This document shows, one piece after another, positions 5,987-58,348 of a stretch of 64,000 nucleotides of DNA. How positions within the stretch are numbered: position 1 is the stretch's first letter; each line of letters starts with the position of its first letter. The notes under the pieces are model-generated. The model was not told the origin of the DNA. It saw nothing but the letters and a program-made list of their open reading frames with translations, and did no database searches. Source of the stretch: Diphasiastrum complanatum (taxonomy: Eukaryota; Streptophyta; Lycopodiopsida; Lycopodiales; Lycopodiaceae); the NCBI GenBank assembly GCA_029204225.1, contig CM055107.1:8735472-8799471 (forward strand), read 5' to 3'. The position numbers were made by a program, and so were the translations under genes.

Positions 5987-6886
5987 CTAGTCTGGATTCG
6001 TGCAGAATTGGCTCATCCTGAACACGACATAAGCAATGTCAAGACGTGTGTTATCTGCAAGGTACATCAATAATCTTATCAGTTTTCTGTATGGTGTGAG
6101 CTGCATCAATTCTCTCTCTTCTTTAGTCCTTGAACAATTTTCGTTCGTCAGTACTGTTCCTACAAGCATTGGAGTATTCGCTTCTTTGCAATTCAGCATC
6201 CCGAAATCTTCTAGGATTTTTTGGGTATATCTGGACTGATGAAGGTACAATTCAACTCCCTCATAGTCCATGTCAATCTGTAAGCCAAGAAAACACCTGG
6301 CTTCTCCCAGGTCTACAATCTCAAAATGTTTTGAGATATCATCCTTCACTTCAGCAGTAAGCTTCTCACTCTTGCAAAGTATCAGAGTGTCATCCACATA
6401 CACAGCCACAATGATGATCTTCTCATCTATAATTCTTATATAGACATTGTAATCAGCCATTAGTGGCTTAAATCCCAAGGATTTCAGGGCCTAATCTTTC
6501 TTTTTGTACCATTGTCGAGCTAACTGCTTCAAACCATAGATACTCCTATGCATTCTGCATGCATAATTAGGAAGTAAATTCGAGACATATCCTGGGAGTT
6601 AATTCATGTAGACTTCTTCGTCTAGCTCACCATGCAAGAAGGTTGTCTTCTCGTCCACAATGTGAATCCTGAGGTCATAAGTAGCTGCATATGCAAATAG
6701 TAAACATAGGGATGAATGTTTCACAACAAGAGAGAAGGTCTCAGAATAATCAATACCATATCTCTGAGAGAATCCCTTCGCTACAAGTCTTGTCTTATAC
6801 TTTGAGACATCTCCATCTGGTCCATACTTTAGCTTGTATACCCATTTGTATTTTACAACCTTTCGCTTATCTGGTAATGGCTGCAA
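5987..6886 (-). pseudogene. Copia reverse transcriptase relic (copy 1)
   Basis: Reverse transcriptase of the first copia element, which would copy element RNA to DNA in virus-like particles. It starts with the KYKWVYKLKYGPDGDVSKYK block and LVAKGFSQ, and holds the catalytic YVDDTLILC motif. Two in-frame stops split it near 6601 and 6491; in copy 2 the same positions read CAA codons, so each looks like a C-to-T change. The frame ends after MSQFCTNPD with no RNase H domain. Confidence 0.85.
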
Positions 6887-7195
6887 CGTCCATACCTAGT
6901 TCTTCTTCATGGATTCCATCTCCTCATTCATGGCTTGGATCCATTTGTCCTTCTCTGGACATTCAATTGCCTCATCGAATGTCTGTGGTTCGGCACTGAA
7001 TCCACGGAACTCTTTTGACGTAGAAGCAAAGTTGCTTGGCACATATCTTACTGGCACTTTTCGTTGTCTTGTCGACCTTCTAGGAGATCCTCTTGGAACT
7101 GCAATGCCTTTGTCTTTGTCTGCTCTGTTAGGTCCAGAACCTTCTCAGTTTACAAGAACTGTAGCAGAAGGCTGCCTCTCGAATCTTTCGTCTTA

Positions 7196-7595
7196 AATCA
7201 CAAAAAATTGAATATCTCAAATTCTATATGCAATTTTTAAAAACTTGATATATCTTTTTGTAGCCTCCAGTGAGACCTTCCTAATGCGCCAAAAATCATC
7301 TAATTCTAGTAAACCAAGTGTGAAAATAGAACTGATCAAGTACATAATCCTATATTGAGTTTTGACCTACAAAAGGGCAATTCTACACATGCAAAAATGC
7401 TGATTTTTGAGTAGAAATCAATCTAGCATGCTCTAGCATTGGTAACTCCTCCAAATCCTTGCTAAAGATGGCTGATCCTTTAATAACTTGAAACAAAAGA
7501 GCTTTGATACCATGTAAAGAATTTTAGATCATTCAAGATCCAATCCATGTCCCTAATCTTTGGTTACAAAAGGAACAAACCAGCAATCCTGCCAA
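7196..7595 (-). mobile_element. Patch of a different copia element (LTR end, PBS, leader)
   Basis: Read on the minus strand, this patch starts like the end of an LTR (TTCTACATTGG..TAACCAAAGAT..GGATCTT), then ATTCTTTACA, then TGGTATCAAAGC, a primer-binding site near-identical to the initiator-Met tRNA complement, and then a leader. The same order occurs at 39740-40150 in the intact copia element of this window. It sits between the integrase end and linker of copy 1 and replaces host-element sequence that copy 2 retains. Confidence 0.75.
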
Positions 7596-8680
7596 TGTAG
7601 AAAAAACTTCACAGTTGATAGGATCATCGTCGGCCATCATTCTGCTCTCATCAAACTTGACATATCTGACTGTCTTCATAGTGTTTGTCTTTGGCATGTA
7701 GACTATGTAGTATGACGAATTGTTGTCATATTCTACAAGATATCTATGTTCAGCTTTCTCATCGAGCTTCTTTCGAAGCTTATCAGGAATATGTTTATAA
7801 TCTGCACAGCCAGAGATTCTGATGTAAGTTAGATTGGGTTTTCTACCCCACCATAATTCATGTGGTGTCATGTGAGGGACACCAGATTTTCCTATCATGT
7901 TCTGAATGTACGCAGTTGTAGCTACTACTTCAGCCCACAGTACTCTTGGAGCTTTTGAATAGGCCATCATGCATCTGGCAGCTTCCATTAGAGTCCTATT
8001 CTTTCTTTCTACAACACCATTGTGCTACGGTGTGTAAGATGCAATCCTTCTGTGAATGATACCACGATCATTGTAGAAGTTAGTGAAGCAATAAGAGATG
8101 TATTCTCCACCTCGATCTGTTTTGATCTGCTTCACTTTATTACCAGTGCATCTCTCTATCCAATTCACATACTCTATGAATTTTTCAAATGCTTCTTACT
8201 ATAGTCATCAATAAAGATAATGTAATATTTTGAGCCTCCTACTGAGATCACATTGAAAGGCCCACAGATGTCAGAATACACTAACTCTAGAATCTTGATT
8301 GTTCTGTAGGAGTCCTTGACAAATGGAGTGCGTGACATCTTACCCTTCAGACAAGCATCACAGGTGATCGAACTAGTTGCATTCAAGATGCTCACCCCTG
8401 TGATTGCTCCATGATGACTTGTTTGGTATAGTGCATCGAATTCATATGGCATAGTCTCATGTGGCATAAACTGTCTGACGAATCATCATGAGTCTGATGC
8501 ACTTGATCTGCAGACAGGCATACCTTTAGGTAATACAGATTGTCTTCTCTTCTAGCTTGAGTGATTAGGGTACTAGTACTTGCATCAACAATGTTGCATA
8601 CTTCGTTTGAGAATGTCACACGCATCCCTGCATCAGCTATTCTTGCTACAGATAGCAAGTCCTGCTGTAGTGTAGACATG
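7596..8680 (-). pseudogene. Copia integrase relic (copy 1)
   Basis: Integrase, which joins element DNA to the chromosome. The GAG-pre-integrase stretch (about 8680-8400) is followed by the catalytic core with VYSDICGPF and FIDDYSK (about 8300-8180) and by a C-terminal part (7988-7596) with TTAYIQNMIGKSGVP, TPHELWWGRKPN and ISGC. Several frameshifts separate these parts. Confidence 0.8.
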
Positions 8681-8823
8681 AACAGAACATCTTCGAGTCA
8701 TCTGTCTCTGCCATTCGTATTGAGCCACAGTGAACCAATACCATTCACTTGGTGTTTGGATTCATCTCCAAGAACAATGAATCTTGACGGATCTGCACTT
8801 CAAAAATTAGACATGATTTGTCT

Positions 8824-9120
8824 TTATGTTACGAAGTGTGAGGTAGCTCTTGAGTCTAGAATTAACACATGTGTATCAAGTGTTGATGCTGCACACATGT
8901 TTTCACATATGTAGGCGGTCGAATTATTTATGTTCGATCTTTCTTCACTCATTTTCGAGCTCTCTGGCTCCTCGACAGAGGACAAACTATTATTCTTCTT
9001 CTGTCTGCTTTGTGCTGATTTGTTTATTGGGTTCAGGCGGTAGTCCATGCCTGCGTGACCCTTCTTGTGGCACTGGATACACTCAATTTTCGGATTGAGC
9101 CAACACGAATTGATAGTAAC
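8824..9120 (-). pseudogene. Copia gag zinc knuckle and protease start (copy 1)
   Basis: A zinc knuckle CIQCHKKGHAGMDY lacks its fourth ligand Cys. After a Ser/Lys-rich linker comes the protease motif ILDSRATSHFVT, where the Gly of the usual DSGATSH is Arg, so the protease would be inactive. The upstream part of gag is lost. Confidence 0.8.
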
Positions 9121-9937
9121 ATGATGACAAAAAAAAAAAAAATGACTTGAAGACCTATTTTTTTTAAATTTATTAAATTTTTTCAAAAAGTATCCAAATT
9201 TAAAATGCTTCAAAAAAATATATTGTAATGGTAAACAAATGTTGTATTTTGCAAGAAAATAATTTAAACTACAAAAATTTGGTCAATAGATTTTTATAAA
9301 TAACTTAAAATTAGATTATATTAAATAATAATACTATTTAAAATAAAATCATTAGATACACAACCACTAAAATACCAAAAAAAAAATTTGCTTACTAAAA
9401 ACAAAAGTTATAGTTTTTTTTTTTTGAAATTTTAAAAGTTTTCTAAATTACAATTCTTGTATCAAAAAAAATATTTTTAAAATTATGTTAAAAATTTGAA
9501 TCAATATTTTTTAAAATTTTAGATTTTCGAAAATCTTTACATACACCCAAGTAAGTTTATTAAAAATTTGAACATTAAATAAACGCAAAGAAAATTACTT
9601 TACAATAATCGAGATTAAATTATTTGTGATAATATTTAAATCACCCTGAAAAAAATATAATTTTTTTTTTCATTTTCTATAATTTTTAACAATATTTTTT
9701 TTACAAAAAATATCATAATAAAACATCTAAAATTAAAATATTGTAAACTTGACAAATCATTACAATTTTAATTTTTGGTTTTAATTATCAATGTTAAGAT
9801 TTTTAAAATATTTCAAATTTTAAATTTTAAATCGTTAAAAAATAAATTTAAAAAGATTAAATCAATAAAAAAAAATTCAAAACACAATACATCAAAAAAT
9901 ATAAACACAATTATTCTTTAAAACAAAAGAGAATTTT
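9121..9937. other. AT-rich block
   Basis: About 800 bp dominated by A and T runs, clearly poorer in G and C than either side. No gene is seen. It lies just past the methyltransferase relic's stop and could include its 3' UTR. Confidence 0.6.
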
Positions 9938-10647
9938 TTATTTCCAAAAATCATCGATGTCATTTACATCTTTTTCTTTTGCTTTTTCTTGAGTAGCCAC
10001 TATATTATCAAGCGGCACCTCTTCTACAATTTCCTCGACTACAGTTACTACATTGTAATCTTGAACCAAGACATCAGTAAATTCTCCTGTGTCGTTTACT
10101 TTTTCGCTAGCAGAAGGCTGAGGTTCCTTGGACAAGGGAATTATTATATACTCGTTGTCCAAACTCTTTCCCACTTTAGATAATTCATCTGGCAAAATTG
10201 AAAGAGATTTCATTCTCATTTTTATAAAATCAACTAAATTAGTATTTAAATCTACTGCAGCAACATGTCTGCCTTTCTGAACAGCACATGCGCTCGTAGT
10301 GCCGCTACCGTTAAATAAATATAAAACCTAATCAGCTGGGTGAGAAAAAATATCAATTAAATGATTAATTAATTGTTGTGGCTTTTGGTAGGGACAAGTC
10401 GGCGATGAAGAGTATATAAGATCTTTTTCTTAAAAATTTTAAAATTTTTCTACAATCACCCTCCTCAACAGAGTAAAAGCACGGTTGATCATCGACACTT
10501 TTGGGAAGGTAGGTCTCTAATGGATCTTCTTCCGCAATGGTCTCACCCCATGTCAATCTCTCCTTGTCCCTTTTTTTCTGCTTTTGCCTTCAGAATATGT
10601 TTCTTGAATTGCTTTGGAAGGGCTTTGTTTTTTTTGTCTTCGGGAGA
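9938..10647 (-). pseudogene. Class-beta N4/N6 DNA methyltransferase relic
   Basis: Looks like a DNA methylase N-4/N-6 family enzyme, which methylates cytosine N4 or adenine N6 using S-adenosylmethionine. A good acceptor (TTTTTCCTTTTCAG) precedes the segment at 10647. A basic stretch (LPKQFKKHILKAKAEKK) leads, past a frameshift at a 7-T run (10571-10577), into LTWGETIAEEDPLETYLPK and the block CFYSVEEGDC, which in this family precedes catalytic motif IV. The next readable frame gives EKDLIYSSSP, then motif X as PYQKPQQLINHLIDIF and motif I as VLYLFNGSGTT, with QKGRHVAAVDLN as motif II. The target-recognition part between IV and X is missing. A TAG (10330-10328) interrupts the frame just before motif I. 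A long acidic tail follows to the stop at 9938. The family call rests on motif order; two frameshifts and one stop make it a relic. Confidence 0.7.
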
Positions 10648-10855
10648 CTGAAAAGGAAAAAAGCTATGCTTAGCATGGGAGACAAAAGATATAAAATAAA
10701 ATAGGAGACTTAACTTATCAAAAAAATTAAATTAAATAAAGAAAAAGCTATGCTTAGCATAGGAGACATAGAATATAGAAAAGAAACAATTAATAAGCAC
10801 CTATGCTAAGCATGGGTGAAATAAATACCATGTCTCTAAACAAAATAAAAAAATC
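10648..10855 (-). other. Intron-like gap between H3-like and methyltransferase segments
   Basis: Non-coding, T-rich on the minus strand, ending in a good splice acceptor. Contains three near-identical palindromic words of the form GCTATGCTTAGCATGG at 10663, 10747 and 10801 (last one inverted at its centre). The matching donor is not clear; the likeliest is a weak GT near 10866. Confidence 0.5.
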
Positions 10856-11140
10856 AAAGAATTTGACTTGGAGGTCCTCATAGGCAATATGGAGGGCTTT
10901 CAGGGTTGTTATGTTCCAGCGAACATCATGTGAGAGGGACCTTGTTACCAGTCTCACAGACCTGTAGAAAGGAGCACCATGAATCTAAAAATTCGTGGTC
11001 CTCTGAAGTCTCCTGATATCCCTTAACCATGGTCTTCTGGGCCGACCTACTCTCCTACCAGTGCCCACTGCCCATTGTAGAGGAGGGCGAGGAGGCGGGG
11101 CAAATGTGGTAAGGCGGGCTGTCTGCTTGGTACGGGCCAT
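10856..11140 (-). pseudogene. Divergent histone H3-like segment
   Basis: The predicted protein starts MARTKQTAR, the exact N-terminus of histone H3. It then has a short, Pro-rich tail unlike the normal K9-K36 region, followed by an H3-like fold. RPRRPWLRDIRRLQRTTN aligns with the alpha-N region (RPGTVALREIR...). After an in-frame TAG (10987-10985), IHGAPFYRSVR aligns with alpha-1, and DVRWNITTLKALHIAYEDLQ with the alpha-2 helix. The alignment from LRDIRR to VKFF needs no gap. The H3 C-terminus (loop 2 and alpha-3) is not found. The divergent tail and fold recall CENH3-type variants. In order it precedes the methyltransferase relic on the same strand and may be its first exon; that link is inference. 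Confidence 0.65.
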
Positions 11141-11389
11141 TGCAAGGTAGGGTATCAATATGACGCGCCAACGAGCAGAAAAAGCAGATATTCGACAGGG
11201 GAGACGCGTGATGGCGATATGAGCGATGGCGTATCAATATGATGCGTGGGCGGGCCAGCTGTATTGGTATGTGGGTCCTTTGGCGCGTGATAGCGATATG
11301 CGTCTAACGGGGAGCGGAAGTGAATAAAGGAAACTAAGGAGAGCCAGAGAACGAAGAATTAAGAAACTGAAATAAGACCCGAAAATGTC

Positions 11390-11397
11390 CTTTTATA
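11390..11397 (-). promoter_or_regulatory. TATA box for the minus-strand H3-like gene
   Basis: TATAAAAG read on the minus strand, about 250 bp upstream of the ATG at 11140; mirrors the plus-strand TATA box. Confidence 0.55.
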
Positions 11398-11451
11398 CTT
11401 GCAGAACGTCCCATCATATTCGCATGTTCGATGTGACACCTCCACTCCCCG

Positions 11452-11723
11452 CACATGTGGTCACACATGTGGTCACACGCACCCGTCACGTGTCAGGATA
11501 TCAGCGGTTCGTACGATCAGACGGCTGACATGCACGTGCGAGGACATGTGGCGACATCAAGACCACACACGTGTCAGAAGACAACTGGGGCGTACGATAG
11601 TACAGTTGGCATTCACGTGCGAGGACGTGTGTCAGGATCTGAAGTGTACACGTGTCATTCATAATGATTTTGCCGTCGTTTCCACACGTGTGGCAATTTT
11701 GACCGCACGTTACAAGACACGTG
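11452..11723. promoter_or_regulatory. G-box array, 81-bp period
   Basis: Seven CACGTG hexamers start at 11487, 11533, 11568, 11614, 11649, 11685 and 11718, preceded by two CACATGTG (11452, 11464). Spacings alternate 46 and 35, giving an 81-bp tandem unit that also repeats CGTACGAT and CACGTGCGAGGAC. Such arrays would bind plant bZIP or bHLH factors; CACGTGTC is an ABRE-type core. Confidence 0.8.
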
Positions 11724-11749
11724 TACGGTTCAGATGCTCTGTATTAGAC

Positions 11750-11757
11750 TATATATA
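11750..11757 (+). promoter_or_regulatory. TATA box for the plus-strand gene
   Basis: TATATATA about 230 bp upstream of the ATG at 11986. Confidence 0.55.
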
Positions 11758-11985
11758 TGAGTGTCATTTCTGTAATTCAGTTTCGCATATTGAGTCCATT
11801 TAACCGACCCGCTCCAAATTTGTTTGTACAATATCGCTACCACGCACCAAGCAAAGACATCCATAGTTGCACTGATTCCCTAGCGCGTGGTTCCGATATT
11901 CGAATTCGCGTACAATGCATATCGCCATCACGCACCCACGCTTACCTCATTTATGTCCCCTTGCTAACTGGCGCGTCATATCGAT

Positions 11986-13461
11986 ATGGCCTCCTCGTCT
12001 GCTAGTTTGACCTATGATAAAACTCTTAGTTCTTTCCTAGCTGATGCTGAGGTTAGCGATAGATAGGCCCATTTTTTGTCCTATTTCGATTTTCAGTTTG
12101 ACATAGAGAGATTTGTTATTGAGCATAGGGAAATTTTTCCTAAACTGTACAAGGATTTTTATGAGTGCTTGCAACAGGGTACCCTTCTGATGGATGGCCT
12201 GAGATTTGTGCATTTCACAGATTTGGCTCATGCTCAGCCAAGTGCCAAGCAAAGGCATGATCGTAAGTTTATCAAACTTATCGATCTGTTTAAACGTGTC
12301 ATACCCTTTGAGGAACACAATCGAGTATGTCGCTTCGTTCAGGAGGATATGGCCTTCGTGTTTTTCTTATCTGCTCTTATCTCTGATGAGGTTGAATCTT
12401 CTAGGTTGTCCATGATTGGTTTGCCTGCCCCTACCACTCGTGTGGATTCAAAGGTTTTCATTACTGATGAGATTTTAGGAGATGTAGAGGAGGCCAGGCA
12501 AGCAGAACAATATGATCCTGCCAAGGCTTGTTCTTTGTCTATCTCTCCGTTATCTACCGCGAGCAAGATTGACCAGAGCAGAACCCTGATGGAACTTCAT
12601 GTGTACCATATGGACGATGTTGCATTCTTATCCATTAGCGACATCGGAGACGTAATGGATCTCGGAGAAGATGAGATATTATCTCTTATGTCAAGGATGA
12701 TTTCTGAATTTAAAGATTTTATTGACTTTGATGATGACGACCTCATAGATGGCATCGACTATGAGGACCAGGTAGAATGGGCAAGTGGCACAGATGCCCT
12801 TCAAAGGATGCTATCTAAGAGCAGGGCATATGAGGCTAATATGCCCAGTGAAGAGGAGTTTTTGGCTTTTCAGAAAAAGTATCCGCCACCTTACACATAT
12901 ACTATTCCAGTTGACCAGCAATCCACCATTATTGCTGGTCACAATTTAGATGCTGCTGATATGATCCAAGCTGACGAGGAGGATTTGGTAAGTACACATT
13001 CTCACGAAAATCATTTATTATTTAACGTGTAATTGATGATTGATCTATTAGTTTGACTAACACTTGATTATGTGTTGTAGGATATCATTGAAGTTGATGC
13101 CTTTGCTAGCAGACATGGAGGATAGAGAGAGAGAGAGAGACAAGGCAGGAGACAGAAGGATGCCTCGTTGGCTCATTATTTGAAACATATTTTAAATAAC
13201 AAAATTTGTGTTCTTCATGAAAGGTTTTTTGTGAATGCGAGAACTTTAATCATGGCCATCAAGGCCCTATCTTATTTTTCCCAAGGGCATAAATACCCAA
13301 ACAAAATACATATAGAATCATTTTTGTCAAAAGAGATGTTGCTCTTAAAGTGTCTATTACGTGCCAGAAAATGTTCCTATGAGATTCTCTACTCTGGCAA
13401 TTCTATTTGGATATATAGATTTGAGCAAAAGGTGATCCACTCGATTTTTGAATCCATATGA
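11986..13461 (+). pseudogene. Unrecognised acidic protein gene, two exons, two TAG codons
   Basis: No family is recognised. Exon 1 is 11986-12987 and exon 2 is 13081-13461. The 93-bp intron has a textbook donor GTAAGT, a CTAAC branch-like site and a TTGTAG acceptor, and phase is 0. The ATG sits in CGATATGGCC, mirrored by the start of the opposite gene. The frame of about 460 codons is open except for TAG at 12064-12066 (codon 27) and TAG at 13123-13125. The first third is rich in hydrophobic and aromatic residues (FDFQFDIERFVIEHREIF). The middle is strongly acidic (FIDFDDDDLIDGIDYEDQ). Then comes FLAFQKKYPPPYTYTIP. Exon 2 runs through a GA repeat into a basic, hydrophobic C-terminus (LKHILNNKICVLHERFF). 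The open length and clean intron show a real gene; function is unknown and it could be transposon-borne. Confidence 0.65.
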
Positions 13462-14814
13462 TAGGAAAAAGTTCCTTCATGACCACACAACAAAAACGGT
13501 CCTTAGAGACAATGAAAAAAAATGATTGTACTCTTTTTCATTTAATGTATGTGAAATTTGAGAATTTTTTATCACACGTGTTTGATCTTTATTGAATGTC
13601 ATCAATCTAATTTTGGCTTATAAATTTACATGCTTTTTTGAATCTTTGATATTCAGTTGATCATGTTGTATATCGAACTTGAGCTCGTCTGTAAGACCAT
13701 TGGAATAGCTGAATGATGTAACTATTTTTTGAGGATGCATTTCTTTACAGTCTCCTGACTGTTTTGAGCACATTCATTATCATAAACACTTGGTTCACTT
13801 GCTTCAAGGCTGTACAAATTTCGACGAAGTACAGAATATCCATCAATAGTCACAAGTTTAAAACACTCATACTTACACTTAACACCTTAACCCATCCCTC
13901 TATACATATCCTTTCTCAGAACCATAGCAATATTGTGAGCTCAAAATCCTCTATCAGAAAATAACTTGGAACTTCAAAAAATAAATCATAACTCAACAAC
14001 TCAGGTCAGCAACATCATGTTCTTACTTACTTCCCTTAGTCCTCTCTCTAATAGACTCTTCTACATAAGCATATTAAGGTACTCAGAGACTCTCTTAGTT
14101 ATCGTTCACATAACATCACAAGCTGAAACAACTCAGGTCCATCAGCAATTGAGTTAGATGCAGGCTCAGCATCATAACCCATCACCACAGCAAAGTAGCA
14201 GAATATCAGAGCTAATTCTCCATAACATAAGCTCAAAATTCAAGATGATAGCAGCATAGTAGTAAATTAGCAACTCAGCAAAACCACCTATGAGTAGCAC
14301 TCTTCACTCTTCTAAGTTTTTTCTTTTTGTTCAACGTTTTGGGCCTTCTTATAGATGGTGGTGGTGGAAGACCACCCTTCACCTTGCCATGTTTTCACTT
14401 TTCAGGTATTTTTCTCCTTTTCAACATGTGGAAAATTTGGTGGAGCCCATCACATCAGCCACTTGCAAGAATATTTTTCTAGAACTTTCTCATTCCAAGA
14501 TGATATAGACACTTTGCTTCTCCTTTTGACATGTGGCAAGGGTGAGATGTCACTCAATGTGATGTCACTAAAAAAAAACTTTTAACATATTAAGCTTTAA
14601 CCTTAACATTTACAAGGGCCAATAACTTTTCGTTAAATGGTTTAGCCCGGTCGGCCTCTTTGATATTTGTCTTGTCGACTTTTCCCTGCAACTACAGTTT
14701 CAATACCGTAAATTGTTATTTTTCTCTTAGTGTATTTAAGTACATGTTTTTCACTTGTTGATGGAAAATCTAAATGTGCAAAATTGAACAATTCAAAAAT
14801 TCCAGTAAAATTCT
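13462..14814. other. No gene seen
   Basis: AT-rich spacer after the two-exon gene. Open frames of up to about 75 codons show no motif, splice context or similarity to other parts of the window. Confidence 0.55.
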
Positions 14815-57984: not shown

Positions 57985-58348
57985 CATTAGAGGAGTTTTG
58001 AGCTCCAAAAAGACCCTTTAAGAATTCGTGCAAGATGTAGTTTATATTATTAAAATATTATAACACTAATACTTTTGACTTGCCATAACTTTTTAATCGT
58101 AGCTCAAAAGTATTCATGTAGCATATCATTGGAAAGCCCTTGTTGAGCGCTTTCCAATGCACGAAACTTCGCTAAATTCGGACTTACCACTAAAAAGTTA
58201 TGCCATTTTTAGTGTGGACTTAAAAAGTTACGTTACGTAGATTTCAAATTTGAGTATTTTGATTGGTCCATGTGTAAGAAAAACTTGAGAAAAAATATAA
58301 AAAGAATCTTTACAAAGGGTCTTTTTTGAATTTAGAACTCCTCTAATG
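57985..58348. mobile_element. MITE, copy 1
   Basis: 364-bp element with terminal inverted repeats: CATTAGAGGAGTT and, through two or three mismatches, AAAAGACCCTTT, about 36 bp in all. No coding. The empty site is preserved in repeat copy A (CTTCTACA/TGGTCATTCC at 30834/30835). Confidence 0.85.

Follow-up and report, generated by a model that had tools for sequence, protein, structure and literature searches.

The locus and its two repeats

The window, meaning the whole 64,000-nucleotide stretch analysed here (C16:8735472-8799471), carries an H3-like coding start beside a decayed DNA methyltransferase, set among the following features.

9118..10852, minus strand: methyltransferase repeat, cut short at 10852 by comparison with 12 of 20 copies, with its 3' end TCATCATGTT at 9118
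9938..10647, minus strand: degraded reading of a class-beta N6/N4 methyltransferase, preceded by an acceptor-like CAG at 10650-10648
10852..10854, no strand: junction of two repeat families, from comparison with genomic copies
10854..11140, minus strand: H3-like coding start, with a MARTKQTAR tail and the fold up to the second helix, truncated at the junction
10854..13737, no strand: internal fragment of the H3 element, cut on both sides in the window
11141..11985, no strand: region of the divergent promoter separating H3 from PO, in the same repeat in L030-L032
11986..13032, plus strand: PO, a 348-codon frame with a TAG at 12064-12066, head-to-head with the H3 gene

The H3-like frame opens with an ATG at 11140 on the minus strand, its opening residues being MARTKQTARLTTFAPPPRPPLQWAVGTGRRVGRPRRPWLRDIRRLQRTTNF, and the stretch around the first two helices of the H3 fold follows ungapped in the same frame as MARTKQTAR, down to approximately 10854. 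The original prediction, which described a minus-strand MARTKQTAR frame with an ungapped match to the H3 fold, is confirmed in both respects; it did not mention that an in-frame TAG at 10987-10985 interrupts the frame between the MARTKQTAR part and the fold stretch. On the same strand, an acceptor-like TTTTCAG ending at 10648 precedes EGDC, PYQKPQQLINHLIDIF and FNGSGTT, which lie in different frames and in the class-beta order that had been predicted. Both readings fall under the Pfam cut-offs, the H3 fragment matching Histone at 17.5 bits (E=0.005) and the methyltransferase frame matching N6_N4_Mtase at 16.6 bits (E=0.008). Nevertheless, these weak matches are not chance, because better-preserved copies in the same genome score highly: the H3 copy L033 reaches 75.6 bits against a Histone cut-off of 26.4 (E=5e-21), and an intact-frame methyltransferase relative, L020, reaches 46.2 bits (E=7e-12), above the N6_N4_Mtase cut-off. 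Profile searches of these relatives therefore bear out both of the family assignments. In L020, ADIPYGF in the preceding exon and DLFSGSGTT after it place a D-P-P-Y-type motif before the FxGxG motif. The L020 profile match, with DIPY and DLFSGSGTT, is a likeness to class-beta N6/N4 methyltransferases of the CcrM and MboII type, from which the methyltransferase here differs in belonging to a multicopy repeat of a plant-like genome and in having decayed in the window. An Rfam search of window positions 9000-14000 gave no match.

The shared strand, the small distance and the acceptor-like site in the window are what favour a chimeric gene, in which an H3 domain would tether the DNA methyltransferase to chromatin, as one of the two readings originally proposed. 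Copies from the genome holding the window (1.74 Gb, 5176 contigs) argue against it in several ways. Firstly, DNA similarity of the 20 fetched methyltransferase copies (L009-L028) to the window never extends beyond 10852 towards H3, and no DNA similarity to the H3 exon was found in any of these 20; 12 reach 10852, and the bases just upstream of this point in those 12 are one common sequence belonging to their own repeat. Secondly, among the matches listed, only one of 130 methyltransferase places has an H3 place within 10 kb, this being the window itself, with about 0.2 expected by chance; pairs within 60 kb number three among the matches listed, two of them near a single H3 copy on C6. Thirdly, the H3 frame contains its TAG, and the methyltransferase is broken by frame changes. 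On the other side of the junction, the window is colinear from 10854 to 13737 with three (L030, L031 and L032) of the four copies fetched for the adjacent plus-strand ORF, the H3 stretch included, while in the fourth, L029, colinearity begins at 11577. In other copies the H3 gene runs past 10854 into the remainder of the histone fold, so that the complete fold is present in relatives, with stops or frame breaks in some.

Comparison of the copies shows that two broken, unrelated repeats meet within the presumed intron-like gap, at 10852/10854. The acceptor-like CAG is indeed present, but it is part of the methyltransferase repeat. Separation of the two parts in homologs had been named beforehand as grounds for rejecting the fusion, and among the fetched copies the H3 and methyltransferase parts are separate; it is the second reading originally offered, two adjacent relics, that agrees with two repeat families meeting at this point. 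On these genomic comparisons the fusion is already refuted as a conserved gene, and a chimera acting as a chromatin tether is extremely improbable. A protein database search with an H3-methyltransferase composite returned no match. In a genome rich in repeats, adjoining mobile elements can pass for a striking gene fusion, and it is the comparison of genomic copies that decides.

The methyltransferase frame itself has at least 150 scored matches among 2186 first-look candidates in the genome search. Similarity to the window ends between 9109 and 9118 in 15 of the 20 fetched copies, and this constant 3' end, combined with variable 5' ends, may reflect LINE-type 5' truncation of the repeat. Relative to the copies that span 10398/10399, about 515 bp are absent from the window at that point. 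The complete repeat has several further exon-like frames upstream, as well as a serine-rich frame on the opposite strand (L018:2287-3348, L020:1487-5089, L010:9082-9687). A ParB-like domain upstream of the methyltransferase was seen by eye alone and was rejected after Pfam, NCBIfam and PHROGs gave no match. Three occurrences of a near-palindromic ATGCTTAGCAT motif lie at window 10658-10813, in the intron-like part of the repeat. A fragment of a copia-type retrotransposon occupies window 5987-9105; it breaks off within gag, near the point at which the methyltransferase repeat starts with its 3' end.

An inverted-repeat element carrying H3

The H3 part of the window is very likely a fragment of a multicopy inverted-repeat element of about 9 kb, carrying H3, the head-to-head PO and a large gene, TP, as judged from the arrangement of their copies. 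Approximately 845 bp separate the opposed start codons of H3 and PO, and related motifs in inverted orientation lie near both; the motif GGCGCGT(C/G)ATA(T/G)(T/C)GATA has three exact matches in the window, all within 11141..11985 and facing both start codons. Scored copies number at least 150 among 4914 candidates for the H3 gene (besides 13 near-canonical H3 loci), at least 124 among 8622 for PO, and at least 129 among 13781 for TP, these candidate totals representing a loose first look rather than copy numbers. The shares of places that pair within 10 kb, all of which are lower bounds, have consistent orientations: at least 59 of the 136 H3 places used have a PO neighbour, on opposite strands in 57 cases; at least 41 of 112 PO places have a TP neighbour (40 on opposite strands); and at least 36 of 136 H3 places have a TP neighbour (34 on the same strand). 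At least 19 loci hold H3, PO and TP together.

The ends of the element are sharp, with matches to the left end beginning at base 1 in 38 of 40 scored, and matches to the right end finishing at the last base in 40 of 40. These ends are imperfect inverted repeats, reading CATTA(C/G)AGGAGTT and on, as in TIR DNA transposons; a fourth frame is located at the left one. On C10, 9,063 bp separate a left end from a right end, and a PO place lies in this interval. None of the five H3-element copies tested has a target-site duplication, the copy C12a sharing five of eight bases, and TP matches no known transposase family and has no solved relative by sequence. TP may be the transposase. No Pfam match above the cut-off was found for PO, TP or the fourth frame. 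The protein database contains one relative of PO, at 88% identity on a 1311-base contig, and an AlphaFold model of PO from its single sequence was unusable (mean pLDDT 34).

Large DNA viruses are known to have histones, DNA methyltransferases and shared promoter motifs, as would be expected were the repeats fragments of an endogenous large DNA virus. However, scans of viral contigs for the methyltransferase, PO and TP, of a kind that finds close relatives, were empty; the H3 unit has its sharp inverted-repeat ends some 9 kb apart; and no viral core gene was noticed in the fetched loci, without a search by name. Such a viral origin is very improbable.

Three further ends resembling the inverted repeat of the H3 element (CATTAGAGGAGTT) lie in the window at 57985, 58348 and 59772, and possibly belong to short non-autonomous relatives. 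A second TP subfamily (L009:7321-7890) is 49% identical to the TP of the H3 element over the aligned part, and is a very abundant repeat, with at least 150 scored copies among 9921 candidates, all of those listed at 88% identity or more.

A divergent histone under constraint

The best view of the encoded protein comes from L033, in which the H3 frame is open for 364 codons from its methionine, with the Histone match in the first 125 residues. Its best solved matches are H3.Y, H3mm15 and H3.3, over residues 2-124 and from the first methionine (best E=1.1e-20), making it an H3 rather than another core histone, and full-length from the N-terminus to the end of the fold. When the fold is compared by itself, its alignment to H3.3 is ungapped (query 5-89 to chain 48-132). 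In the protein database, the element-borne protein matches only five histones, all of them general or distant.

Across the 13 H3 copies, including that in the window, K4 is always present and K9 always lost, being replaced by L in 12 and I in one. No copy has K at positions 14, 18 or 23; the K27 position is R in 12 copies and K in one; and the K36/K37 stretch is missing from all of them, with the residue assignments from about K23 to K37 being approximate, because of a 12-residue gap in the tail alignment. Within the fold, all 13 have R in place of K53 and K56, and S in place of K79. Among the 12 copies reaching these positions, K115 and the fold contacts H113, R116 and T118 are invariably kept, C110 and D123 are each kept in 11, and K122 is replaced by Q in 10. 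Residues R2 and R8 are variable among the copies, and many copies contain stops. As the conserved modifiable tail lysines are mostly absent, with K4 kept, this is therefore a divergent H3 variant and not a canonical H3. It shares with H3.1, H3.3 and H3.Y the MARTKQ start, the ungapped alignment to the H3.3 fold and the H113, R116 and T118 residues, but unlike them is multicopy, with a shorter tail that lacks K9, K14, K18 and K23, and with R at positions 53 and 56 and S at position 79. The unusual tail, a TNLLIP stretch and a W after the loop-1 arginine are features we take to be reminiscent of CenH3 (CENP-A). However, loop 1 is not lengthened, given the ungapped alignment to H3.3, and both H3.3 and H3.1 score slightly higher than Cnp1 against the element-borne fold.

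Selection was estimated from 11 copies, a set that excludes the window and L040, the 3' part of which is unrelated. Across the fold (codons 35-125), dN/dS is 0.170 (bootstrap over codons 0.102-0.284), compared with 1.01 and 1.10 for the same bases read in shifted frames, and 0.177 when all 13 copies are used. The tail is not demonstrably selected, because the value of 0.43 for codons 1-9 has a bootstrap interval of 0.11-1.46, and that for codons 10-34 is 1.17. Beyond the fold, dN/dS is 0.67 for codons 126-215 and 0.50 for codons 216-365. Eight of the 11 copies were taken from the H3 list, mostly for their open frames, which biases the estimate towards conservation; in the three chosen through PO alone, dN/dS across the fold is 0.108. 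In the fold, variation affects the third position of 42 of 91 codons, compared with 42 of 182 first and second positions (Fisher p=1.6e-4, with columns that are non-independent); this excess remains when CpG and CHG sites are left out, and is absent past codon 125. Single dN/dS values need care, since shifted frames of PO and the methyltransferase gene range from 0.25 to 0.93. Those for PO (0.48, with 0.43 and 0.75 in shifted frames) are uninformative for selection, as are those for the methyltransferase exons, in which coding frames span about 0.40-0.78 and shifted frames 0.25-0.93, with frame 0 noncoding in one exon. Additionally, dS in the fold (0.27) exceeds the divergence of neighbouring stretches (0.07-0.14, for regions past codon 125), and dN in the fold (0.045) is only about two-fold below that of those stretches; given this high dS, true selection on the fold may be weaker than 0.17 implies. 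Taken as a whole, the substitution pattern indicates that protein-level constraint very probably acted on the H3 fold during divergence of the family.

This constraint bears on whether the H3 is passive cargo, a host gene captured by the element that contributes nothing to the element's life cycle. Capture of host genes is frequent among plant DNA transposons, and such an origin is consistent with the stops in many copies and with the loss of the codon-position signal past codon 125. Yet passive cargo should drift, and against this stand the low dN/dS of the fold, in the PO-chosen copies as in the full set, and its third-position excess. Hence H3 as a mere passenger is unlikely. A C-terminal domain on the H3 protein was considered but is not claimed: the region is open in several copies, but its dN/dS of 0.50 compares with 0.60 and 0.78 in shifted frames, and it has no codon-position signal.

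Possible roles of the element-borne histone

Plants silence mobile elements through H3K9 methylation, which is linked to non-CG DNA methylation, as well as through H3K27 methylation. An H3 without the corresponding lysines may have an anti-silencing role, evading lysine-based repression, although we propose this only tentatively. The gene would be expressed from the divergent promoter, and its product would pair with host H4 and enter nucleosomes, perhaps mostly on the DNA of the element. Chromatin containing this H3 could carry neither H3K9 nor H3K27 methylation, nor the usual tail acetylations, with H3K4 methylation still possible. Consequently, both H3K9-linked DNA methylation and Polycomb silencing would be weakened, and the element would stay active.

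These observations would also accord with a structural or targeting role, whether the histone packaged DNA in a transposition complex, acted as a decoy for H3K4 readers, or steered insertion to K4-marked chromatin. The invariance of H113, R116 and T118 wherever present, and of K4 in every copy, is in keeping with such functions. However, nothing favours them over anti-silencing, and none would need the systematic loss of K9, K14, K18, K23, K53, K56 and K79; we consider a role of this type possible but doubtful. The explanation in its entirety, combining the two-repeat junction, the H3 element, selection on the fold and anti-silencing as the likeliest single role, has in our judgement an even chance of being correct.

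Core histones encoded by genetic parasites are already known from viruses, including the H4 of bracoviruses and the histones of Marseilleviridae and Medusavirus. The element-borne protein is similar in being a core histone of a parasite, but is set apart by being a single H3 within an inverted-repeat element. In searches of an open-access library, no report of a transposon-encoded histone was found.

A functional parallel may be VANDAL, plant DNA transposons that carry a gene directed against silencing, encoding the VANC proteins (PMC10398659, PMC5735166). VANC acts by binding DNA motifs within the element that encodes it, whereas the candidate factor here is a histone, and anti-silencing has been demonstrated for VANC, while for the element-borne H3 it is conjectural. 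Plant transposons are known to counter silencing with DNA-binding proteins, and an element that supplied its own nucleosome component would be using another approach. It is conceivable, if some way from probable, that this family encodes a silencing-proof, K4-bearing nucleosomal H3 without K9, K27 and almost all other host-marked lysines, and that, with at least 150 copies of this type and at least 126 other divergent H3 loci in the genome, replacement of the host histone is a general strategy of such elements. A K4-only H3 would in addition offer a natural experiment on the lysines that H3 must retain in order to function.

Two other groups of H3 loci occur in the genome. Among the matches listed, canonical H3 is represented by 13 loci at 98-99% identity. 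A second class of dispersed H3-like loci, with at least 126 members, is about 43-56% identical to canonical H3, and none of these 126 coincides with the 136 window-type H3 places used, among the matches listed. An example is the following locus.

C1:87422806-87423192: second-class H3-like locus, the first 180 bases of which are L066

One second-class locus opens with MARTKQTARPKS; it has K4, and its residues 9 and 10 are P and K. One of the 126 has a TP relative 4.35 kb away on the same strand, with 0.26 pairs expected by chance within 12 kb, and its same-strand H3-TP layout matches that of the window-type element. The second class may also be element-borne. Separately, a 601 aa predicted protein, P0005, has a C-terminal H3-like domain and is encoded on a 32,956-base contig.
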